A stretch of DNA of 64,000 nt, taken from assembly GCF_025457605.1 (NCBI RefSeq), contig NZ_JAMZFY010000001.1, positions 1,426,001-1,490,000 on the forward strand. The letters are read 5' to 3'. This document shows positions 37,784-54,520 of this stretch, one piece after another (position 1 is the stretch's first letter; each line of letters begins with the position of its first letter). Source of the DNA: Haloarcula laminariae. GTDB taxonomy: Archaea > Halobacteriota > Halobacteria > Halobacteriales > Haloarculaceae. The notes under the pieces were generated by a model. It did no database searches and was not told the DNA's origin. It was given only the letters and a program-made list of their open reading frames with translations. The position numbers and the translations under genes were made by a program.

Positions 37784-38743
37784 ATGGTAGAACTATCACT
37801 AGTGTTGCCTCCGGAGCCGGACAATCGATGGCAACTCGCCAAACAGATGGGGGTAACCAGTGCAGTCGTCCACCCACTGGAAATCGGCGATGGCACACAG
37901 TTCTGGACGTACGACGAGCTGCTCGGACTCCACCAGTGGTTTACCGACGCCGGAATCGACATCGCTGTCATGGAGGGGAGCGTTCCGCTCACGGACAAGA
38001 CGAGGCTCGGGCTCGACGGCCGTGACGAGGAGATAGAGTCGTTCCAGCAGTTCCTCCGCGACTGTGGTGAACTCGATATCCCCGTCGTCTGTTACGACTG
38101 GATGGCGGGCATTCGATGGGCACGAACGAAGGCACACGTCGATTCTCGCGGCGGATCATACGCTACCGCGTTCGACAACGAACAGATGGGTGGTGGTCCG
38201 ACTCACCCAGCCACGTCGGTTTCGGCGGACGAGCTCTGGGAGAACCTCGAATACTTCCTCGAACGAGTCGTTCCCGTCGCCGAAGAGGCGGGCGTCAAAC
38301 TCGGACTCCACCCCGACGACCCGCCCCGAGCGGACGTTCGCGGAGTCCCGCGCATCATCAACAGCGTGGAAGCGTACGACCGAGTGCTCGACATCTACGA
38401 CAGTGTCCACAACGGCGTCACGTTCTGCCAGGGGAACTTTGCGGCGATGGGCGTCGATATTCCCGAAACAATCCACCACTTCGGCGACCGAATCAACTTC
38501 GTCCACTTCCGCGATGTCGATGGGGACGCGGACGCGTTCGTCGAGACGTGGCACGACGACGGCCCGACGGATATGTTGGCTGCGATGCAGGCGTATCGGG
38601 ATATCGGCTTCGACGGTCCGATGCGACCGGACCACGTCCCGACGATGGCCGGCGAGTCGAACGATAACCCCGGCTACCACACCAAGGGGCGGCTGTTCGC
38701 CATCGGCTACATGAAGGGGCTCCTCGAACAGACGGATGAGTGA
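37784..38743 (+). CDS. uxuA: Mannonate dehydratase-family protein (UxuA paralogue 1)
   Basis: A 319-residue TIM-barrel protein of the UxuA family, about 75 residues shorter than the E. coli enzyme. All four likely metal ligands are present: His176 in GLHPDDPP, Cys215 in VTFCQGNFAAM, His241 in FVHFRDVDG and Asp283 in RPDHVP, plus the catalytic His284. UxuA dehydrates D-mannonate to 2-keto-3-deoxygluconate. No uronate isomerase or mannonate oxidoreductase of the classical pathway is adjacent, so the true substrate may differ. The SMP-30 gene overlaps its end by eight bases. Confidence 0.83.
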   Translation: MVELSLVLPPEPDNRWQLAKQMGVTSAVVHPLEIGDGTQFWTYDELLGLHQWFTDAGIDIAVMEGSVPLTDKTRLGLDGRDEEIESFQQFLRDCGELDIPVVCYDWMAGIRWARTKAHVDSRGGSYATAFDNEQMGGGPTHPATSVSADELWENLEYFLERVVPVAEEAGVKLGLHPDDPPRADVRGVPRIINSVEAYDRVLDIYDSVHNGVTFCQGNFAAMGVDIPETIHHFGDRINFVHFRDVDGDADAFVETWHDDGPTDMLAAMQAYRDIGFDGPMRPDHVPTMAGESNDNPGYHTKGRLFAIGYMKGLLEQTDE

Positions 38744-40086: not shown

Positions 40087-41538
40087 ATGCCATCCCGCCC
40101 CAATGTCTTGCTCGTCATGGCCGACCAGCACCGCGGTGACGCAATCGGCGCGGACCCGCACTGTCCGACGGATAGCGCTGGCTATCCGTTCGTTCACACG
40201 CCGGAACTGAACAGTCTCGTCGACCGGGGTGCGCTGTTCTCACGCGCGTACGTTCCCGCACCGATTTGCGTGCCTGCCCGCCAATCGCTCTGGTCCGGAC
40301 AGACTCCCGCTAGTACCGGGGCAACAAACTGGTATGGGCACCCGTGGGAGTTCGAACACACGCTCGCTGGGGAGTTGACCGACGCCGGGTACCAGACGCA
40401 GTTAATCGGAAAGACGCATTCCCATCCCCGCGGGAACCACGTGGGCTTCGAACGGATGGGGCCGACACACGTCGGTGCATCACTCAGAGACGACGACTAC
40501 GCGGAGTGGTTACGGGACCGGAGCGGCGGACGGTACGACAAGCACACCGGCGGGCTGGAGTCGAACACGTGGACGGCACGCCCCTCCCACGTCCCGGAGC
40601 ACGAACACGCCACCACGTGGACGACGACGAAGGCGCTGGAGTTTCTTGAAGAACGGGACGAGGACCGGCCGTTCTTCCTGACAGTCTCGTATCAGCGGCC
40701 ACATCCCCCGTTCGACCCTCCGCAGGCGTTCTGGGATATGTACATCGACCGGGACCTGCCGGCGCCGTCCGTCGGCGACTGGCCGCTGGAGACGTTCGGG
40801 GACGAGATGTCCGACTATCCGCCGACGGACGCGTGGATTGCGGACCTGTCTTCCGACGAGATAGACCGCGCGAGGGCCGCGTATTACGGGCTCGTGACGC
40901 AAATCGACTTCCAGCTGACTCGCCTATTCGAAGCCATGTGGCGTGAACACGGCGTCCTCGACGACACCCTAATCATCTACACCTCGGACCACGGCGAGAT
41001 GCTCGGTGACCAGTACCTCTGGCGGAAGGGGTTCCCGTTCGAGGGGTCGGCCCGCGTGCCCCTCGTCATGCAGTTCCCGGCGGGAACGGAGTATCCGACG
41101 GCACAAACTATCGACCGGCCGGTCGGGCTCGAGGACCTGATGCCGACGATTCTCGAGTTCGCAGGTGTCGACATCCCGGCGACAGTCGACGGCCGGAGCC
41201 TGCTGTCGCTCGTCGAGGACCCCGATTCGGACTGGCGGCCGTTTTACCACGGCGAGCTGGGGCCGTCTTGGTCGGTCAGCGACGCGACCCAGTATATCGT
41301 CGATGAACAGTACAAGTACGCCTGGAACCCGGTCACCGACGACGAGTTCCTCTTCGACGTAGAGTCCGACAGGCGAGAGCTACAGAATCTGGCAACGGAC
41401 CCTTCCGAGGAGACCCTACGACAGGAGTACCGGAGTACACTCGCCGACCATCTGGCACAGCGTGACGAAGGATTCAGCGACGGGGACGCGCTCACCACAG
41501 TCGGTCTCGACGCGTGGGAGGGCATGGAGACACCGTAG
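40087..41538 (+). CDS. Sulfatase (arylsulfatase A-like)
   Basis: A 483-residue type I sulfatase. The N-terminal metal site is PNVLLVMADQHRGD, and the modified cysteine lies in ICVPARQSLWSG (Cys61-x-Pro-x-Arg), which should be converted to formylglycine. The second metal site is YTSDHGEMLGD. No signal peptide is visible, so it probably acts in the cytosol on an imported sulfate ester. The sugar-acid genes around it suggest a sulfated uronate or related sugar. No formylglycine-generating enzyme is in the window. Confidence 0.88.
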   Translation: MPSRPNVLLVMADQHRGDAIGADPHCPTDSAGYPFVHTPELNSLVDRGALFSRAYVPAPICVPARQSLWSGQTPASTGATNWYGHPWEFEHTLAGELTDAGYQTQLIGKTHSHPRGNHVGFERMGPTHVGASLRDDDYAEWLRDRSGGRYDKHTGGLESNTWTARPSHVPEHEHATTWTTTKALEFLEERDEDRPFFLTVSYQRPHPPFDPPQAFWDMYIDRDLPAPSVGDWPLETFGDEMSDYPPTDAWIADLSSDEIDRARAAYYGLVTQIDFQLTRLFEAMWREHGVLDDTLIIYTSDHGEMLGDQYLWRKGFPFEGSARVPLVMQFPAGTEYPTAQTIDRPVGLEDLMPTILEFAGVDIPATVDGRSLLSLVEDPDSDWRPFYHGELGPSWSVSDATQYIVDEQYKYAWNPVTDDEFLFDVESDRRELQNLATDPSEETLRQEYRSTLADHLAQRDEGFSDGDALTTVGLDAWEGMETP

Positions 41539-41549
41539 GGAAATCGCCC

Positions 41550-42329
41550 TCAGTCCCGCCGCCAATACTGGACGTTGACCTCGATTTCGTCGGCGGCCCG
41601 CCGGACCAGGTTCGGTATCTCCGAGTCGAACGCCTCGCCGTCGAGCCGAGTTGATGGGCCTGCGACGTCCAGCGCTCCGATGACCTCGTCCGTCTCTTTG
41701 TTGAGTATGGGCGCAGCGACCCCACGGACGCCAGTCAGGCGCTCCTGGTCGTCCCAACTCACTCGCTCTTCCCGTATCTTTTCGAGTTCTGTCCGCAGCG
41801 CTTTCTCGCTCGTGATCGTGTTATCGGTCATCTCGTCCAGCCCCATCTCCCGAATAACCGCCTCTCGTTGCTCCTCGTCCATATGTGCCAGTATCGCTTT
41901 ACCGCCCGACGTACAGTGCATGTGCATCGCAAGCCCCAGATGCGCGTCAGTTCGAACCGAGCGGTCGCTCTCGGCCATGTAGCACTTGACCACCCGATGC
42001 TGTTCCGGGACAACGAGTGAGACCCGCTCCTCCACCTCGTCGGCCACGTCGTCAGCTATCGGGCGACCGATACGGAACAGCGGGTTCCGTTCCCGATTGT
42101 ACGACGCCAGATCGAACAGATGCAGGCTGATATGATAGACATCCCCCTCACGAATGATGTACCCCTCCTGACGAAGGGTCGACAGATGGCGGTGAATCGT
42201 CGACTTTGCGATGTCGAGTTCGCCGGCCAGTTCCACGAGCGTCGCCCCCTCCCGCTCTTTCATCAGTTCGAGAATCTCCACCGTGGTGCCGACGGCGGAG
42301 ACCGGGTTCGCGGCGTTGTGCGTGCCCAT
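41550..42329 (-). CDS. IclR-family transcriptional regulator (second)
   Basis: A 259-residue IclR protein resembling the regulator at 26.1 kb. The winged helix includes GATLVELAGELDIAKSTIHRHLS, and the effector domain has MHCTSGGKAILAHMDEEQ and DQERLTGVRGVAAPILNKE. It is convergent with the sulfatase gene with an 11-base gap. On its promoter, ATCTGATTGGCTCTCAGAT sits between a TATA-like box and the start, a good place for autoregulation. Confidence 0.88.
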   Translation of the reverse strand: MGTHNAANPVSAVGTTVEILELMKEREGATLVELAGELDIAKSTIHRHLSTLRQEGYIIREGDVYHISLHLFDLASYNRERNPLFRIGRPIADDVADEVEERVSLVVPEQHRVVKCYMAESDRSVRTDAHLGLAMHMHCTSGGKAILAHMDEEQREAVIREMGLDEMTDNTITSEKALRTELEKIREERVSWDDQERLTGVRGVAAPILNKETDEVIGALDVAGPSTRLDGEAFDSEIPNLVRRAADEIEVNVQYWRRD

Positions 42330-42389: not shown

Positions 42390-42944
42390 TCAGTGATGGG
42401 ATTCCGGCGAAGACGCCGAATCGACGGCCGTCATCCCCGGGTTCGTCAGGACTCTGGGCCGCTCGACGAGCGGCGTCTCCGGATACTCGCTTCGAAGGAC
42501 GGCGAAAGCGAACCCGTTGGCCGCCGCTTCCGCTATCGGCTTCGCGTGCGACGAGATACCGAACAGGTCGCCGATCCGTCGGCGCCAGCTCCCCGGGTGA
42601 ATCGATGCGAGTTTGTCATCGGGGACGACTGCGTGTCCGAGCTCGTGAGCGAGGACGCCGGCGGTCAGGTGCGCTGTGGGGATATCGTGTCTCTCGGCGA
42701 GCGCCCGGATTTGCTCGCGGTACAGCGAGATGACGTCCCCGTCATAGCTACCGAGCATCACCAGTGTCCCGGTCCCGTCCCAGTCCTCCGTCTCGACGCG
42801 GATGTTCAGCCGGGCTGTCAGCGTCGTCGGGTCGCTCGTCCCTCGTCGTTCCAGCAGCTCCGTTGCAGTGTCGGCCCCCAACATCCACGCCTCTCGTTCC
42901 ACAGCGGTATCGAGCAACGCGTCGGAGGGGACCGTGCAGTTCAT
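42390..42944 (-). CDS. ImmA/IrrE-like zinc metallopeptidase
   Basis: A 184-residue soluble zincin. The motif LAHELGHAVV (His100, Glu101, His104) is followed by AEAAANGFAFAVL, in which Glu139 is the likely third zinc ligand, matching the E-x3-N-x-F pattern of ImmA/IrrE (DUF955) proteins. No helix-turn-helix is attached. Its start overlaps the stop of the hydantoinase-A gene by four bases (ATGA), so the two are translationally coupled, which is an unusual partnership. Cleavage of a regulator or processing of its partner are possible roles; neither is shown. Confidence 0.7.
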   Translation of the reverse strand: MNCTVPSDALLDTAVEREAWMLGADTATELLERRGTSDPTTLTARLNIRVETEDWDGTGTLVMLGSYDGDVISLYREQIRALAERHDIPTAHLTAGVLAHELGHAVVPDDKLASIHPGSWRRRIGDLFGISSHAKPIAEAAANGFAFAVLRSEYPETPLVERPRVLTNPGMTAVDSASSPESHH

Positions 42945-45085
42945 GGCTGCTGTCCGACGATTAGCAGCTCCGTTTCGTCGGCGAGCCCTTCGAGTTCGAT
43001 GTCCACCAGCGAGTGAATCTGGTCCCGGGCGGACAACCCGCTGGCGTCGATAATCTGGTTTCCGTGGCAGATGTAGATGTTCGGCAGTCTCGTCGCGGAG
43101 CCGCTGTACACCGACTCCTGGTCGAGTACGCGTTTCAGCGACCGTTCGAGGCTCCCCTTGTCCGTTCGATACACCGTTGCGTTCTGGAGTTTGAGCTTGA
43201 CCACACCAGTCTCGTCGACGATGGAGACGTGGGTCTGCTCGTCGGAAAGCAGTCCGAATAGTTTCTGCGTTTTCTGACTCGTCTCGTAGACGTACAGGCC
43301 ACCCGTCGTTTCTTCGAGGGCGATGTTTTCGTCCGCGACGTCGAGACTCGCCGCGGCCTTCTCTTTTCGTTCTGTGTCACTGACCGTCTCCTGTCCCATC
43401 TCGCGCGTTTGCAGTTCGGTCGACCCCTCGGCCTCGACGCGCAGGAGGTTCTCGGAATCGTCGTACTTGATGTTCGCCTCGACTGTCTCCTGATTTGCCC
43501 CCATACCGACGACGGAGTCGATGGCCTCCTGTCTGATTTGGTCGATTTGGTCCTCCGACGGGTTCATCACGTTCCGTTCGACGACGTCCCGGACCATCGC
43601 CAGCCCGACGCCGACCGTACTGACGATCTCGTGGTTCTCGGCCAGACGCGTGTCGAAATCGGTCGCTTCGCCGAGATACGGAACCAGGGCGCCACAGCCA
43701 CCGCCGCCGCCGACGACTTCGAGCAGCGCGGGGTCCAGGTCGTACTCCTCGATGACCTCCTCGATGACCGGGATAATCTTGTGGACGCTCTCGTCTAGCA
43801 CTTCGCGTGCGGCCCCCTCCACGTCGGTCCCGAGCTCTGCAGCCAGTGGTCCAAACGCCTTCCGGGCGGCCTCCGGATTCCCGGCGGCGTAGACATCGTC
43901 GTCCAGCAGCCCGAGCAGGTTCGACGCACAGCTGGGGGTCAGCGCGAACATCTCCCCATTGGCGATCTCGATAGCCGCATACTCCGGGTCGCCCTCTTTC
44001 GGCGTTATCCAGGTGAGCTCCGGGTCGACGATATCCTCCGGGTCGGCGAACGTCGAGTAGGGGAGGTCCGCGATGTGGGCGCTCCTCGGGCCCGACTGGA
44101 CGACCTCACCGTCTTCGACCCGAATCATCGAGCCCCCTGCGACGCCCTCGGTTCGGATGTCGAGCGTCCGCAGGAACGTCGAGTGACCGCCGATCTCTGC
44201 AGCCTTCCATTTGGGCTGGCCCTTCTCGATGACGCTGATGTCGCTGCTGGTCCCGCCGACGTCAATGAAGATGCCGTCCGTGACGTTCTCGTACATCAAC
44301 GCCCCGGCAACGCCGGCGGCGGGTCCCGAAAGGATGGTCTGAATGGGCCGCCTCTGCATCTCGTCGATGCCCATCACGCCGCCATCGGAGCGCATTATCA
44401 TCAACGGCGAGTCGATGCCGAAGTCCTCGATGCTCTCACTGGTCGCTTTCGACGTTTCGATCATCCGGGGGAGGATGCTCGCGTTGACGACCGCCGTCCG
44501 GGTCCGGATTTTGAGCCCGTATCGTTTCGAGACTACGTTTGCCCCGATACCCGGGAGTCCGAAGTCCTGGGCCAAGCTCTGGACCTTCTCCTCCATCTCG
44601 GCGTTGTCTACTCCGAACGCTTGGCTCGCGACGATAGCGCCGACTCCTTCGGATTTGAACCGCTCAAACGTCGCATCCAGCTCCGACTCGTCGAGACCCT
44701 TTTTTATATTGAGGTAGTCGTGCGTCGTCTCGATTGCTTGGTCGTCGTCGAGTTCGATGTCGCCGATATCGGTCTCGGACTTTGCTCGGCGGCCCTGAAT
44801 CCCTTTCCCGAGACCGACGATTCCGACTTTCGATACGTCCCCTTCGAGCAGGGCGTTCGTCGCTTGCGTGGTCCCGTGAGCGATGAATACGACGTCTTCG
44901 GGGGAGGCCGACAGCCACTCCAGAAGGTTCGATGTCGCTTCGACGATTCCGGCTGCAACTCCGATATCCGCGTCGTGAGTCGTTGGGACTTTGGTTTGGG
45001 CCACTACCTCGAACGACTCGGTATCGATGGCCACGGCATCGGTAAAGGTGCCACCAACGTCAATTCCTATCCTCACTGTTGGCAT
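42941..45085 (-). CDS. Hydantoinase/oxoprolinase A-type ATPase (HyuA family), stand-alone
   Basis: A 714-residue HyuA-family protein. The actin-like ATPase starts IGIDVGGTFTDAVAID and has the second phosphate loop IFIDVGGTSSDISVI; the C-terminal half contains VVGGGGGCGALVPYLG. HyuA normally works with HyuB in ATP-dependent opening of hydantoins or oxoproline, or in acetone and acetophenone carboxylation. No HyuB-like gene is in the window. It is the first gene of a unit with the zincin and lies 120 bases from the permease gene. The substrate is unknown. Confidence 0.85.
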   Translation of the reverse strand: MPTVRIGIDVGGTFTDAVAIDTESFEVVAQTKVPTTHDADIGVAAGIVEATSNLLEWLSASPEDVVFIAHGTTQATNALLEGDVSKVGIVGLGKGIQGRRAKSETDIGDIELDDDQAIETTHDYLNIKKGLDESELDATFERFKSEGVGAIVASQAFGVDNAEMEEKVQSLAQDFGLPGIGANVVSKRYGLKIRTRTAVVNASILPRMIETSKATSESIEDFGIDSPLMIMRSDGGVMGIDEMQRRPIQTILSGPAAGVAGALMYENVTDGIFIDVGGTSSDISVIEKGQPKWKAAEIGGHSTFLRTLDIRTEGVAGGSMIRVEDGEVVQSGPRSAHIADLPYSTFADPEDIVDPELTWITPKEGDPEYAAIEIANGEMFALTPSCASNLLGLLDDDVYAAGNPEAARKAFGPLAAELGTDVEGAAREVLDESVHKIIPVIEEVIEEYDLDPALLEVVGGGGGCGALVPYLGEATDFDTRLAENHEIVSTVGVGLAMVRDVVERNVMNPSEDQIDQIRQEAIDSVVGMGANQETVEANIKYDDSENLLRVEAEGSTELQTREMGQETVSDTERKEKAAASLDVADENIALEETTGGLYVYETSQKTQKLFGLLSDEQTHVSIVDETGVVKLKLQNATVYRTDKGSLERSLKRVLDQESVYSGSATRLPNIYICHGNQIIDASGLSARDQIHSLVDIELEGLADETELLIVGQQP

Positions 45086-45205: not shown

Positions 45206-46513
45206 CTACAGTCCGAACAGATACACCGAGGTCACCACGCCCCCCGCGGCGATTACCCAGATGAACGGGAGGATTTCCTTGGTGATGCTGTTGACGCTGA
45301 CCTCCAACTCCTCTGCGGCCCACGCGTTGTGGGTGTTCGTCGGGTCACCGGGCGCCTGCACCCGCAGGGCGCTGATTGCGGTCGTCGTGATGAGCTGTGG
45401 GTTGATACCGATAGCTGCCAGGACTCCGATGATTCCGCTCCCGAGCCCCCAGATGTTCATCGGGCCACGATACAGCGCGAGCGGTGCCAGAACCGAGAAC
45501 ATTATCGCGTAAAGCACCATGCTCTCGGGGATAATCTGCATCAGCAGCGGTTCCATCGTCGAGGAGATCGGGTCCGCGAACACCGCCTTCAGCAACCACC
45601 CGATCGCCACCATCAGCGCGATGGCGGGCGCAACCTGTTTGATTCCATCGTGGAAGCTCTGCGTTATCAGATTCAGCGTACCGCCCAGGTTCTTGATTCC
45701 CTCCAGTCCGGGCTGACTGAACACCGCGGCGTAGACGATACCGACGATGAACGCGGCGTAGACGTTCATAATGTCGAACACGACGAGGCCGACGGGAATG
45801 ACCGGGGCGATGAGCGCGTATTTCGGAACCGACGTCGACATCCCGCTCGTGTCCGTTTCCGCCAGTGTCGCCTGTATTTCCGTGTTTCTGACCTTCAAGA
45901 ACACGTAAATGATTCCGACAACATACGCGAGGCCGGCGACCGGAAGCGCCCAGTTGATGACCGAATCGAGCGCGATACCCGTAACCTCCTGATAGAATAC
46001 CCAGTTGCTGGGGTTGAGCATCACACCGTTACCGTATGCGAGTAGTGTGATGGCACCGGCAATCTTCTGCGTGAATCCGACGCTGACCAGTATCGGGAAC
46101 ACGATTGTCGCCATGAGGATGAACGCCCCGAGTCCACTGATACTCGTCGAGGCGATGACGACTGCGGTGTACAGGGCTGCAGCCATCACGAGGGGGCTGT
46201 CACCGCCCAGCTCGGCGGCCGATTTGACGATATCCTCCAAGATACCCTGCTTCTCCGCGAGGACCCCCAATGTCCCACCGAACGCCGCGGCAATCATCGC
46301 CGATGCGAGCCGTGTCGAACCGCCCGCGACGATGTCCTGGAGTATTGTCTGTGGCCCCAATCCGCCCGCAAAGCCGATTGCTATGGCCATCCCACCCAGC
46401 GCGATGAAGGTTGGAACAACCTCGAACATCATCATACTTCCAAATATGATGAACGCTACTATGATACCGACTGCTGCTAGTTCGACCATGCTAATGCTCT
46501 CCAATGCCACCAT
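45206..46513 (-). CDS. Ion-transporter-superfamily-type permease
   Basis: A 435-residue membrane protein with about 11-12 hydrophobic segments, including AVGIIVAFIIFGSMMMFEVVP at the start and FIWVIAAGGVVTSVYLFGL at the end. Loops such as ASTSISGLGAFIL and RVQAPGDPTNTHNAW fall where IT-superfamily carriers (CitM, GntP or DctM type) have substrate loops. Close placement to the HyuA-zincin unit suggests it imports that system's substrate, but it could also act with the divergent FAD oxidoreductase gene. Confidence 0.7.
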   Translation of the reverse strand: MVALESISMVELAAVGIIVAFIIFGSMMMFEVVPTFIALGGMAIAIGFAGGLGPQTILQDIVAGGSTRLASAMIAAAFGGTLGVLAEKQGILEDIVKSAAELGGDSPLVMAAALYTAVVIASTSISGLGAFILMATIVFPILVSVGFTQKIAGAITLLAYGNGVMLNPSNWVFYQEVTGIALDSVINWALPVAGLAYVVGIIYVFLKVRNTEIQATLAETDTSGMSTSVPKYALIAPVIPVGLVVFDIMNVYAAFIVGIVYAAVFSQPGLEGIKNLGGTLNLITQSFHDGIKQVAPAIALMVAIGWLLKAVFADPISSTMEPLLMQIIPESMVLYAIMFSVLAPLALYRGPMNIWGLGSGIIGVLAAIGINPQLITTTAISALRVQAPGDPTNTHNAWAAEELEVSVNSITKEILPFIWVIAAGGVVTSVYLFGL

Positions 46514-46618: not shown

Positions 46619-46702
46619 TTGACCAGATTGACAACCAAGGCCCGATCGCCAGCTAGGTCGCGTAGTGTTGGCCGGGTCGAGAAAACTCACAGAGATTCCA
46701 GC

Positions 46703-48673
46703 ATGCAAACCGAATACGACACCGTCGTTCTCGGCGGAACACCCGGCGGGATAGCTACCGCCGTGAGGGCGGCACGGGAAGGCGCAGAGACACTCTTGGT
46801 CACGTACAACGACCATCTCGGCGGGATGATGACTGGGGGGTTAAGTTACACAGACACCCTCATGATGAAACCGCGTGCAAAGATATTCGCGGAGTTCCGG
46901 GCGGCAGTCCGTGAACATTACCGCGATACCTTCGGCCCCGACTCCGAGGACTATGCTGCCTGCGAAGCGGGGTACATTTTCGAGCCACACGTCGCCGAGT
47001 CTGTCTTAGACGGCCTCGTCGAAGGCGAAACGTCACTGGACCTCCGTTGGGGATACTCCCTGCAGTCGGTCGAGCGGGAGAACAGGGAGATAACGTCGCT
47101 CACTCTGCAAGCCTTCGATAGCGACGAGACGGTCACGATTGCCGCTTCGGTGTTCGCCGACGCGACGTACGAAGGTGACCTCCTCGCCACGGCCGGAGCG
47201 GAGTTCAGAGTCGGGAGGGAATCTCGCTCTGAGTTCAACGAGCAGTTTGCCGGCAAACTCTACACACGTACGCGTGGTGACCGGTATTACCCACAGGAGG
47301 CCGTCGGCGAGGGCGTAAACCCCGATGCACCGGCCGACCGGCGCGGGCCGCTCGACACACCGCCGGAAAAGCGGCAGGGCCCGTTAGACCTGGTCCCCCA
47401 CCCGGCGGGCATCTCGGAGATATATCCCCGAAGCACCGGCCAAGGCGACGACCGCATTCAGGCCTACAGCTATCGGCTCTGTCTCACCGACGACCCAGAG
47501 AACCGGGTCAAGCCGTCGATGCCGGACGATTACGACCCCGCTGAATACACCGACAGCCTGGAGGAAATCGAGCGGGTCGGGTTCAGGGCGTTCATGCGGC
47601 TCCGCTATCTTCCGAACGACAAAGCCGACATGAACACCGCCGATCTGCCCGGAGAAAACTACGACTACCCGGATGCGGACTGGGAGGGCCGCGAAGAGAT
47701 AGCCCAACGCCACAAATCGCACATACTGGGGCTGCTCTATTTCCTCCAGAACGACGATGCGGTCCCGGACAAGGTACAGTCCGAAGCGAACCAGTGGGGC
47801 CTTGCGGCCGATGAGTTCGAAGACAACGACAACTTCCCGTTCCAGCTCTACGTGCGGGAGGCCCGGCGCCTCGATGGCCGGTATATGTTCACGGAGAACG
47901 ACGCTCGATACGCTGACGGACTCGACCGGACGCCGGTTCATCGGGATAGCATCGCGGTGGCCGAGTATCCACTCGACTCACACGCCTGTCAGCCCGACCG
48001 CCAATTCGGGAGCCATCCGGAGGGCCATTTCTACGCGTCTCAGGTCACACGCCCCGCACACGTACCGTATCGGGCACTGCTGCCACAGAGCATCGACAAC
48101 CTCCTCGTTCCGGTGCCGCTCTCCGCGTCACACGTCGGCTACGGCTCGCTACGTCTGGAGCCGACTTGGTTGCACATCGGGGAATCGGCGGGCTATGCAG
48201 CCGCGATAGCCGTCGAGTCCGACCAGGACCCGGCAGACATCTCTGTCGCTCGCCTCCAGCGTCGTCTGGCGGAAAACGAGATGATGCTCTCGTTCTTCAA
48301 CGACGTCGATGTCACAGACGAGGAGCCTTGGGTCCCTGCGGTTCAGTATCTCGGCACCCGCGGGTTTTTCGGGTCGTACGACGCCGAGCCAGAGGAACCC
48401 CTGTCGAGAGGTGTCGCCGAGGAGTGGGCTGCGACGACCGCCGACCTGCTCGGTGACGCCCCCGATGAGCTAACGGACCACGCGAGGGCCCTCCAAACCG
48501 GTGATGAGTCTGGTTCGGTTACCGCCGAGGAGTTCGTAGCGATGCTTGAGCACGAACTGTCCGTCAATGTGCCCTCCACAGTCGATACCGTCCTCGAGGA
48601 AACGGACTCGGTAATCGACCGTGGCACGGCCTGCCGATTAGTCTATCGCCTACTTCGGGACAGAGACAGTTAG
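46703..48673 (+). CDS. FAD-dependent oxidoreductase (FAD_oxidored type)
   Basis: A 656-residue flavoprotein. The FAD-binding motif VVLGGTPGGIATAVRAAREG opens the protein, followed by NDHLGGMMTGGLSYTD and the family segment FADATYEGDLLATAGAEFRVGRES. The C-terminal half has LRLEPTWLHIGESAGYAAAIA, typical of these proteins, and a long unassigned tail. Members occur in polysaccharide and sugar-acid loci, but their reactions are largely unknown. It is divergent from the permease at 45.2-46.5 kb. Confidence 0.83.
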   Translation: MQTEYDTVVLGGTPGGIATAVRAAREGAETLLVTYNDHLGGMMTGGLSYTDTLMMKPRAKIFAEFRAAVREHYRDTFGPDSEDYAACEAGYIFEPHVAESVLDGLVEGETSLDLRWGYSLQSVERENREITSLTLQAFDSDETVTIAASVFADATYEGDLLATAGAEFRVGRESRSEFNEQFAGKLYTRTRGDRYYPQEAVGEGVNPDAPADRRGPLDTPPEKRQGPLDLVPHPAGISEIYPRSTGQGDDRIQAYSYRLCLTDDPENRVKPSMPDDYDPAEYTDSLEEIERVGFRAFMRLRYLPNDKADMNTADLPGENYDYPDADWEGREEIAQRHKSHILGLLYFLQNDDAVPDKVQSEANQWGLAADEFEDNDNFPFQLYVREARRLDGRYMFTENDARYADGLDRTPVHRDSIAVAEYPLDSHACQPDRQFGSHPEGHFYASQVTRPAHVPYRALLPQSIDNLLVPVPLSASHVGYGSLRLEPTWLHIGESAGYAAAIAVESDQDPADISVARLQRRLAENEMMLSFFNDVDVTDEEPWVPAVQYLGTRGFFGSYDAEPEEPLSRGVAEEWAATTADLLGDAPDELTDHARALQTGDESGSVTAEEFVAMLEHELSVNVPSTVDTVLEETDSVIDRGTACRLVYRLLRDRDS

Positions 48674-50519: not shown

Positions 50520-51473
50520 ATGCAGACAGCACTCATGCTGCCGCCGTCACCGGACAGGCGGTGGGCACTGGCCAAACAGCTCGGCGTAGGTTGTGGTGTC
50601 GTCCGCTTTTGGGGCGTCGACGACTGGTGGGAGTACGACACCCTCCTCCGCGTGCGAAACCGGTTCGAGGACCACGACGTCCCGCTTCGGGTTGTCGAGG
50701 ACAGACCACCGATGACCAAGACGGTACTCGGCGAGGACGGCCGCGACGAGGAGATAGCGAGGGTGAAACAGCTCCTCAGGAACATGGGGAAGCTGGGAAT
50801 AGAGACGTACTGCTGGGTGTGGACGGAAAACCCGGTCGGCGTCCTCCGAACGTCCGATTCGATTCCTGACCGCGGCGGGTCACTGCTAACTGGGTACGAC
50901 CACGCGCTGAGCGAGCGCGCTGGTGACCACCCCGCGGCAGGTATCACCGAGGACGAACTCTGGGAAAACCTCGAGTACTTCCTCGATGAGGTGGTGCCGG
51001 TCGCCGAGCAGGCGGGTGTGAAGATGGCACTACATCCGGACGACCCGCCGCTCTCGCCGGTTCGGGGCGTCCCGCGGCTCGCGACCTCCGTCGACAACTA
51101 CGAGCGCATTCTCGACCTCTACGATAGTCCGAACCACGGTGTCACTTTCTGTCAGGGGAACTTCGCCGCGATGGCGACTGACGTATCGGACGCGATTCGC
51201 CGCCTCGGTGACCGCATCCACTTCGTTCACTTCCGTGATGTCGAGGGTACACCGGAGTCGTTCGTCGAGACCTGGCACGACGACGGACCGACGGATATGC
51301 GGTCGACTATCGAAGCCTACCGTGATGTCGGGTTCGACGGCCCGATACGCCCCGACCACGTACCGAAGATGGACGGAGAGGAGGACCGAGAGGGCGTCCA
51401 CGCGGGCTACACTGACATGGGCCGGCTCTTCGCTATCGGATACATCCGGGGACTGCTCGAACAGACGGAGTAG
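50520..51473 (+). CDS. uxuA: Mannonate dehydratase-family protein (UxuA paralogue 2)
   Basis: A 317-residue protein colinear with the paralogue at 37.8 kb. Metal and catalytic positions are conserved: His172 in LHPDDPP, Cys211 in VTFCQGNFAAM, His237 in FVHFRDVEG, Asp279 and His280 in RPDHVP. The region between residues 25 and 130, which lines the substrate side, differs most between the two. It follows the third IclR gene and precedes the TRAP transporter, so its substrate is probably what that transporter imports. Confidence 0.83.
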   Translation: MQTALMLPPSPDRRWALAKQLGVGCGVVRFWGVDDWWEYDTLLRVRNRFEDHDVPLRVVEDRPPMTKTVLGEDGRDEEIARVKQLLRNMGKLGIETYCWVWTENPVGVLRTSDSIPDRGGSLLTGYDHALSERAGDHPAAGITEDELWENLEYFLDEVVPVAEQAGVKMALHPDDPPLSPVRGVPRLATSVDNYERILDLYDSPNHGVTFCQGNFAAMATDVSDAIRRLGDRIHFVHFRDVEGTPESFVETWHDDGPTDMRSTIEAYRDVGFDGPIRPDHVPKMDGEEDREGVHAGYTDMGRLFAIGYIRGLLEQTE

Positions 51474-51604: not shown

Positions 51605-52606
51605 ATGCCACAGCAAAGCCGAAGGAGCTTCGTCGGGAAGCTCGGCGTAATCGGTGGTGCCGGTGCATTGACATCCCTCGCGGGTTGCTCCGGTGACGGA
51701 TCGGACAGCGGGACCGACATAGTCATCGGGAGCGTCTTCCCGAGCGGCCACGTCATCAACGAGATGGCGACATCCTGGTCCGAGACCGTCGCGGAGGAGA
51801 CCAGCGACCGCGTGTCGATAACAATCGAGCCCGCTTTCGGCGGCGAGGCCGAGGTGATGGAGCAGACGCGCATCGGCTCTATCGGCGGGACCATCATCGG
51901 GACCAGGTGGGTAATCGACTACGACCCGGAGAACTTCTGGGTCGAATCGCCGTTCATCTTCGACGGGTGGGAGCAACAGCGGCGGGCGTTCGAAACCGAC
52001 TACCTCGACGACGGCCGCCAGCGCCTCAAGGAGGACGGCAACCAGGAGCTCGTCGGCCCGCCGGTCTACCGGGGGTACCGCCACACGTCGGGGAACAAGG
52101 CTTTCAACACGCCCGAAGACATCCAGGGCGTAAATATCCGCGTTCCCGACCTCTCGCCGTGGGTGAACATCTGGGAGGGGCTCGGTGCCAGCCCGACGAC
52201 CGTCGCCTTCGACGAGCTGTACAGCTCGCTGCAGCAGGGCGTGGTCGACGCACAGGAGAACCCGGCCGAAACGGTCCTCTCCGCGTCGCTTAACGAGGTG
52301 CAGAGCCACTACACGATGACCCGGCATCTCGCCTCGACTGGCTGGTTCACCATCAACAACGATATCCTCTCCGGGCTCTCGGAGGACGACCGCTCGGTCG
52401 TCAGGGACACGCTTTCGAGCAACATCGAGGAGCTCAGTACGAGTATCTCCGAGTCGGAGTCCGACGCGATCGACGAACTGGAGAGCAACGGGATGAACAT
52501 CGTCGAGCCGGACCGCGACGCGTGGCTCTCCGCGGCCGAGGAGCCGCTCAAGGCGCAGTTCGAGGAGACCTGGGAGCCGTCCCTCGAAGAAGTCCGAAAC
52601 ATCTGA
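51605..52606 (+). CDS. dctP: TRAP transporter substrate-binding lipoprotein DctP
   Basis: A 333-residue DctP-family receptor. A twin-arginine signal (SRRSFVGKLG) and lipobox SLAGC export and anchor it. The mature protein has IVIGSVFPSGHVINEMATSW and the family segment ALT-like FDELYSSLQQGVVDAQENP, in which the conserved arginine-binding site for a ligand carboxylate is expected (KGVNIRVPD-like VNIRVPDLSP). Sugar acids are common ligands in this family, in agreement with the uxuA genes. Confidence 0.9.
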   Translation: MPQQSRRSFVGKLGVIGGAGALTSLAGCSGDGSDSGTDIVIGSVFPSGHVINEMATSWSETVAEETSDRVSITIEPAFGGEAEVMEQTRIGSIGGTIIGTRWVIDYDPENFWVESPFIFDGWEQQRRAFETDYLDDGRQRLKEDGNQELVGPPVYRGYRHTSGNKAFNTPEDIQGVNIRVPDLSPWVNIWEGLGASPTTVAFDELYSSLQQGVVDAQENPAETVLSASLNEVQSHYTMTRHLASTGWFTINNDILSGLSEDDRSVVRDTLSSNIEELSTSISESESDAIDELESNGMNIVEPDRDAWLSAAEEPLKAQFEETWEPSLEEVRNI

Positions 52607-52630
52607 AAACCCCCCGGGACACATTGAACT

Positions 52631-53185
52631 ATGACTGAGAACAGTGCCGTATCAGCCATCACCCGCAACTTCGACCGGGGGGTCAGGGTGCTCGCTCTGG
52701 CTTTGTACGCGTTGATGATACTCGTCGTCGGGTTACAGATACTGACTCGGTGGGTGTTGGCGCCAGTTATCGGCAGCCTCCCGTGGACGGTCAACCTCTC
52801 GCAGATGCTGCTCGTCTACGTCACGTTCATCGGTGCGGCGGTCGCGAGCGGCAAGCACGAGCACATCTCACTCGACCTCCTGTCGTCCCGGCTGTCAGAC
52901 GAGAAGGTTCGGTATCTCGCCGGGCTTCGGTCCGTGATGACAATCGGGTTCGTCAGCGTGTTGATTGCCGGCGCGTATCCGCTGTACCAACAGAACAAGG
53001 GTTCAGTCATCGGCGCGTTACCGGCCCACCCACCGTTCACGCAGGCGTGGCTGTACGTCCCTGCGGTCGTCGGCGGCGCTATTATCGTCATATACGCCAT
53101 CCGTGACCTCTGGGAAGTCATCACAGACCCAGCAACTGTCGTTGCCGAGCTTCGAGGGGATGAAACGTATGATACAGACTCATAA
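52631..53185 (+). CDS. dctQ: TRAP transporter small membrane subunit DctQ
   Basis: A 184-residue membrane protein with four hydrophobic segments and the DctQ signature FIGAAVASGKHEHISLDLL. It lies 24 bases after dctP and 36 bases before dctM, in one operon. Confidence 0.9.
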   Translation: MTENSAVSAITRNFDRGVRVLALALYALMILVVGLQILTRWVLAPVIGSLPWTVNLSQMLLVYVTFIGAAVASGKHEHISLDLLSSRLSDEKVRYLAGLRSVMTIGFVSVLIAGAYPLYQQNKGSVIGALPAHPPFTQAWLYVPAVVGGAIIVIYAIRDLWEVITDPATVVAELRGDETYDTDS

Positions 53186-53221
53186 CACAGCAAGAATCAA
53201 GTCGCGGGGGGAGGGACGCTA

Positions 53222-54520
53222 ATGTCAGACATCGTCCTCCTTACTCTGTTCATCGTGGTACTGCTCGGGCTGTATCTACTGGAGGTCCCGGTCGTCTACG
53301 CGCTCGGACTGACGAGTCTCATACTGATGTTGTTCACGTCGATACCGTTCGAGCCGCTGCTCGTCGCACAGACGATGGTCAGCGGGAGCAACTCGTTTGT
53401 CCTCCTGGCGATTCCGCTCTTCCTCCAGACCGGCCTGTTGATGAACGCGCTGGGCCTCACCGACGTCATATTCGACTTCGCGAAGGCTATCGTTGGGCCG
53501 ATTCGTGGCGGCCTCGCCCACGTAAACATCGTCGCGAGCATCATCTTCTCGGGCATGACTGGCACCGCCGCGGCGGACGCCGCCGGCCTCGGTGCTATCG
53601 AGTACCGGGCGATGCGCGAAGAGGGCTACGAGGAGGGGTTCAGCGTCGCCGTCACCGGCTCGTCGTCGATTATCGGTCCCATCATCCCTCCGAGTGTCCC
53701 GCTCATCATCTACGGCGTCATCGCGCAGGTGTCCATCGGGACGCTGTTCATCGCCGGCCTCGTCCCCGGTTTCATCATGGGTCTGGGCCTGATGATTCTG
53801 TGTACCATCTACGCACACCGTAACGGGTACGAGCGCGGTGACTGGTGGTCGCTCAGTGAGATCGGGCGAACCGGATTCCGCGCGCTCCCGGCCCTCGGAA
53901 CGCCGATCCTCATTATCGGCGGTATCTTGGGCGGCCTGTTCACTGCGACAGAAGCGGGCGCGATAGCGCTGTTCTACACCATCTTCATCGGCACGGTCTT
54001 CTACGATGCCCTCAGTTGGCAGGAACTCATAGCGAGCTTCGAGGACGGGATGACGCGGACGTCGTCGCTGACGTTCATCGTCGCAGCCGCCGCGCTCTAT
54101 GGCTTTCTCATCCGGCGCGCACAGCTCCCGGAGGTGCTGGCCAACGCCGTGACGACGGTCTCGACCGACCCGCTCATCGTCCTGTTGCTGATAGCGGCCG
54201 TGCTGTTCATCGTCGGTCTCATGCTGGAGACGATAGCGGCGATTACGATTCTCACGCCCGTCTTCCTGCCCATCATCGAGCAGACGGCTATCAGTCCGAT
54301 TCACTTCGGTGTAGTGATGATTATCACGTTGATGATCGGCCTGTTGACGCCTCCCTTCGGCGTTATCCTGTTCGTTCTCAACGCCGTGACCGGCGTCTCG
54401 CTCGAACGCATCACGAGGAACATGCTGCCGTTCTACGTGCCGCTTGTCATCGCGCTCCTGCTCACAATCATCTTCCCCGAAGTCGTCCTGTGGCTCCCGC
54501 GGACGATGGGGCTCGCCTGA
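53222..54520 (+). CDS. dctM: TRAP transporter large membrane subunit DctM
   Basis: A 432-residue membrane protein with about 12 hydrophobic segments. Diagnostic parts are SIIFSGMTGTAAADAAGLG, VTGSSSIIGPIIPPSVPLIIYG and the C-terminal LTPPFGVILFVLNAVTG. It is the sodium-driven transport subunit of the importer, which takes the ligand from DctP. Last of the three TRAP genes. Confidence 0.92.
   Translation: MSDIVLLTLFIVVLLGLYLLEVPVVYALGLTSLILMLFTSIPFEPLLVAQTMVSGSNSFVLLAIPLFLQTGLLMNALGLTDVIFDFAKAIVGPIRGGLAHVNIVASIIFSGMTGTAAADAAGLGAIEYRAMREEGYEEGFSVAVTGSSSIIGPIIPPSVPLIIYGVIAQVSIGTLFIAGLVPGFIMGLGLMILCTIYAHRNGYERGDWWSLSEIGRTGFRALPALGTPILIIGGILGGLFTATEAGAIALFYTIFIGTVFYDALSWQELIASFEDGMTRTSSLTFIVAAAALYGFLIRRAQLPEVLANAVTTVSTDPLIVLLLIAAVLFIVGLMLETIAAITILTPVFLPIIEQTAISPIHFGVVMIITLMIGLLTPPFGVILFVLNAVTGVSLERITRNMLPFYVPLVIALLLTIIFPEVVLWLPRTMGLA

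Follow-up and report, generated by a model that had tools for sequence, protein, structure and literature searches.

A small HELGH zincin gene overlaps a HyuA-type ATPase gene that has no adjoining hyuB in a sporadic haloarchaeal catabolic module

HyuA-type ATPases are common, and their role when they occur without HyuB is poorly understood. Among the nearest known systems are the HyuAB-type ATP-dependent amidohydrolases and carboxylases, namely 5-oxoprolinase, N-methylhydantoinase, the caprolactamase CapAB and acetophenone carboxylase. Genes that overlap are typical of subunits of one complex. Metallopeptidases of the ImmA/IrrE type (family M78) control transcription by repressor cleavage (IrrE/DdrO, ImmA/ImmR), and the regulatory members normally cut repressors of the XRE type. 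In caprolactamase, ATP is bound in CapA, CapB holds an essential metal, modelled as zinc, and a tunnel connects the two sites (PMC8453981).

We analyzed a 64,000-nucleotide stretch of the Haloarcula laminariae genome (hereafter, the window) in which a gene for a HyuA-type ATPase overlaps a gene for a small protein with a HELGH motif (Table 1). Both reading frames lie where a sequence-only reading of this DNA had placed them, the four-base overlap that it described is present, and its naming of the ATPase is borne out by scores well above the respective cutoffs for PF05378 (104.7 bits) and PF01968 (220.8 bits). The IclR regulator, the permease and the FAD oxidoreductase, which had gone unmentioned, are conserved members of the same module.

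Table 1. Features of the HyuA-zincin locus, with positions counted from the first letter of the window
Feature	Position	Strand	Remarks
Sulfatase	40087..41538	+	PF00884, 1.2e-47; present at the locus only in the nearest relatives
IclR-family regulator	41550..42329	-	IclR_C, 6.5e-34; 60 bp downstream of the zincin gene
HELGH zincin gene, M78/ImmA-like	42390..42944	-	184 aa; metal ligands invariant in 10 orthologues; of these, 8 match phrog_87 and 1 exceeds the PF06114 cutoff
ATGA stop/start overlap of hyuA and zincin gene	42941..42944	-	4 bases
HyuA-type ATPase gene	42941..45085	-	714 aa; PF05378, 6e-30; PF01968, 3e-65; no adjoining hyuB
Permease, citrate/gluconate-transporter type	45206..46513	-	upstream of hyuA; orthologues in 10/10 haloarchaeal loci
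FAD-dependent oxidoreductase	46703..48673	+	PF12831, 7.5e-94; divergent from the permease; orthologues in 10/10 haloarchaeal loci

The window HyuA has both Pfam domains and the phosphate motifs in common with the HyuAB-type enzymes, and its nearest solved structures by sequence in the PDB are N-methylhydantoinase (7hk5) and 5-oxoprolinase (6yra). The phosphate motif DxGGTxTD at residues 9-16 (D9-VGGTFT-D16) is invariant across the haloarchaeal set, and in the window protein the second motif, DxGGT, reads D275-VGGT; several members have Glu at position 275. Unlike the HyuAB-type enzymes, the protein has a C-terminal region of about 215 residues without a Pfam match, and the gene coupled to it encodes a small zincin. 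AlphaFold models calculated from three-sequence alignments were too poor, with a mean pLDDT of 43 for the zincin and 42 for HyuA.

The sequence-only reading had also found no hyuB within the window, and the window indeed contains none. The sole PF02538 match of the whole genome (C1:350864-352384) lies 1.12 Mb from the pair, just after the other of the genome's two PF01968 matches (C1:349398-350258), the remaining one being the window hyuA itself. A PF02538 search of the genome thus offers the window HyuA only this distant hyuB, which adjoins a different hyuA. All nine genomes that bear the pair contain at least one hyuB; its adjoining hyuA is established in the window genome only.

In the small partner protein, the HELGH motif occupies residues 100-104 and E139 is the third ligand; H100, E101, H104 and E139 are invariant in all 10 haloarchaeal orthologues. 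The sequence-only reading had placed it in the ImmA/IrrE type; an M78/ImmA-like character is supported by the motif and the downstream Glu, which M78 enzymes share, and by weak but consistent profile matches, although the window protein itself scores below the Pfam cutoff (14.3 bits against 22 for PF06114). Its best Pfam match is PF06262 (Zincin_1), also below cutoff at 19.3 bits against 22.4 and over 43 aligned residues. A single orthologue (G093) passes the PF06114 cutoff, with 26 bits. Five of the 10 orthologues have M78 matches and five have Zincin_1 matches at E values up to 1; eight have matches at E values up to 0.1 to phrog_87, a family of phage metallo-proteases. Alignment with haloarchaeal M78 proteins in hhalign gave a probability of 56%, confined to the surroundings of the HExxH motif, and a PDB sequence search with the zincin profile returned insignificant matches only (best E 0.054). 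The Halocatena orthologue is annotated as 'metallopeptidase family protein'. The M78/ImmA-type profile matches suggest a peptidase fold, and we regard the protein as M78/ImmA-like, short of a proven member, an assignment that is a weak-profile call, if a consistent one.

The protein differs from the known M78 enzymes in being coupled to a metabolic ATPase. We detected no helix-turn-helix domain in the protein. Next to its gene there was no sign of an XRE repressor gene, either among its conserved haloarchaeal neighbours (HyuA, permease, IclR and FAD enzyme) or among the annotated neighbours in named records. The link to a helix-turn-helix gene expected of ImmA proteins is nonetheless not simply absent, because such a regulator gene adjoins the zincin gene in 4 of the 10 haloarchaeal loci; it is of the IclR type, not XRE.

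The coupling of the two genes is conserved beyond this strain: it is present in nine Halobacteriales genomes, at a tenth haloarchaeal locus in Halocatena marina and on a Streptomyces plasmid. The HyuA clade is present in 9 of 392 Halobacteriales genomes, with 63-77% identity in the eight unbroken copies, leaving the window's own aside. A zincin profile search of 384 Halobacteriales genomes recovered the same nine at E < 1e-55, with the next best match at 0.004; as the profile was built from these very proteins, their strong scores are expected, and what carries information is the absence of further ones. Searching with a single sequence recovered the same nine genomes and three marginal matches (E 2e-4 to 3e-4). 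Co-occurrence of the HyuA clade and the zincin is therefore complete in both directions within the Halobacteriales set. One scan of genome contigs yielded two loci, and one of viral contigs none. The zincin gene immediately follows hyuA on its 3' side in each of the 10 haloarchaeal loci, which span five families including the window's own, while the remaining genes differ in their order; the stop and start codons overlap by 4 bp (ATGA or GTGA) in nine loci and by 1 bp in the tenth. The two genes are an overlapping, co-occurring pair within a sporadic catabolic module, and the constancy of this arrangement in a nutrient-uptake cluster suggests that their products cooperate. At one locus (L031:9562-11717, genome G156), hyuA is broken into two overlapping frames, through a frameshift or an assembly error, whose halves match at 58 and 69%; the neighbouring zincin gene is intact.

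The module as a whole, consisting of an anion permease, the FAD oxidoreductase, HyuA, the zincin and the IclR regulator, is sporadic and often plasmid-borne. The permease has no Pfam match of its own; its orthologues are annotated 'citrate transporter' in named records, and distant relatives occur in lactic acid bacteria, within clusters of sugar-acid genes. The FAD oxidoreductase gene probably starts at the ATG at 46703, the longest reading frame beginning with a TTG at 46619. This enzyme does not define the pair, since it also occurs without HyuA: a Haloarcula marina plasmid (L049:4926-8866) carries an FAD oxidoreductase of 58% identity, accompanied by genes for a mannonate dehydratase and an IclR regulator, but has neither HyuA nor zincin there. 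The IclR gene is found in all 10 haloarchaeal loci at varying positions. Full-length copies of the sulfatase, 80-83% identical, occur in Halostagnicola and Halocatena, and Haladaptatus DYF46 has a short fragment match. When the intergenic regions between the divergent FAD oxidoreductase and permease genes were aligned, no clear common operator emerged.

Related modules occur in bacteria. On a plasmid of Streptomyces sp. NBC_01237, the order is FAD oxidoreductase, HyuA (41% identity), a 200-residue protein with the motifs HEAVH and EEIAAHA, and permease, and the gene of the small protein overlaps the HyuA stop by 4 bases. Aligned with the zincin profile in hhalign, this protein shows 24% identity over 116 columns (p 0.014, probability only 3%). 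It may be a divergent zincin; the score is weak alone, and the argument leans largely on the position that the two have in common. The regulator of this locus, read by eye, appears to be of the LacI type in place of IclR. A Selenomonas ruminantium plasmid carries the FAD enzyme, the permease and a HyuA of 43% identity, next to which no zincin and no hyuB is annotated. On a Deinococcus taeanensis plasmid (L040:5782-10052), a more distant HyuA that still belongs to this broader clade comes after a gene for an iron permease of the FTR1 family; here too, neither a zincin nor a hyuB is annotated next to it.

The two proteins evolve at different rates. In two genome pairs, dN/dS was 0.30-0.33 for the zincin and 0.05-0.07 for HyuA, i.e., about five times higher for the zincin. 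The distances of HyuA and zincin are closely correlated (Mantel r 0.96), as expected of a unit inherited together, a value that is not specific to these two proteins because other module genes probably correlate too.

We tentatively favor the zincin as a dedicated accessory metallopeptidase that acts on HyuA or the module and does not form an indispensable catalytic half of the enzyme, a reading to which we give a probability of roughly 0.4. The permease would bring in an organic acid, which the FAD enzyme and HyuA may convert using ATP; the zincin would be produced together with HyuA, bind to it, and act on it or on another module protein in quality control, turnover or activation. The complete co-occurrence described above speaks for this reading, together with the fixed 3' position and overlap of the zincin gene, the small protein in the same slot in Streptomyces, the invariant metal ligands and the M78/ImmA-type profile matches, and the fast evolution of the zincin and its absence from the Selenomonas module fit an accessory, non-core role. 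The lack of an XRE-type repressor speaks against it, as does the lack of a visible HyuA pro-sequence that could be removed, since the length and ends of HyuA are about equal with or without an adjoining zincin. C-terminal processing of HyuA was considered and appears unlikely, the Selenomonas HyuA, with no zincin next to it, having similar length and ends. A simple passenger gene, carried along with no functional tie to HyuA, would also evolve fast and would suit a sporadic module frequently found on plasmids, but it is very improbable given the fixed overlapping adjacency across five haloarchaeal families and Streptomyces, the invariant metal ligands and a dN/dS clearly below 1.

The sequence-only reading had raised the possibility that the zinc protein became a HyuB substitute. 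In such a scheme, HyuA would phosphorylate a lactam-like substrate and the zincin would hydrolyze the activated intermediate with its zinc, in the role of the HyuB metal site. As caprolactamase divides ATP and an essential metal between linked sites in CapA and CapB (PMC8453981), this is a reasonable idea, and an intact HyuA without adjoining hyuB, an invariant metal site in its partner and an overlap as seen for subunits of one complex are in its favor. Chemically attractive as it is, the proposal is weakened by the Selenomonas module and the Deinococcus homologue, which have no annotated adjoining zincin or hyuB, and by the fivefold higher dN/dS of the zincin. Moreover, the zincin has about 180 residues compared with some 580 in CapB, lacks PF02538, and carries a HExxH...E site and not the Asp-His-Asp-His site of the CapB/HyuB metal subunit. 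We thus consider it doubtful that the zincin substitutes for HyuB, and likewise doubtful that HyuA and zincin represent another way of building an ATP-dependent hydrolase, with a small and unrelated fold of the zinc metallopeptidase kind replacing the metal-hydrolysis half that HyuB normally provides; a HyuA-coupled accessory metallohydrolase, acting as a peptidase, is more likely than an obligate HyuB replacement. It is unlikely that the zincin works in the manner of ImmA, cleaving the IclR regulator and so switching the operon. Repressor cleavage is what M78 peptidases are known for, and an IclR gene is present in every haloarchaeal locus and adjoins the zincin gene in some; however, the known M78 partners are of the XRE type, the IclR gene moves within the locus while the zincin-HyuA link stays fixed, and the Streptomyces locus has its apparent LacI-type regulator instead.

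We found no report of a hydantoinase paired with ImmA in the literature. The dedicated, overlapping zincin gene provides a testable partner for one HyuB-less HyuA clade. If the zincin is catalytic, the pair would represent a new way of building ATP-dependent amide hydrolases; a peptidase role would extend the ImmA-like proteins from phage-type repressors to a metabolic ATPase.

The module probably acts on a derivative of an organic or sugar acid, and the region resembles a catabolic island for sugar acids. Two mannonate-dehydratase-like (PF03786) genes, at 37784-38743 and 50520-51473, flank the module; one precedes a gluconolactonase-like gene, and close to the other are an IclR gene and a TRAP transporter, DctP-DctQ-DctM (51605-54520).
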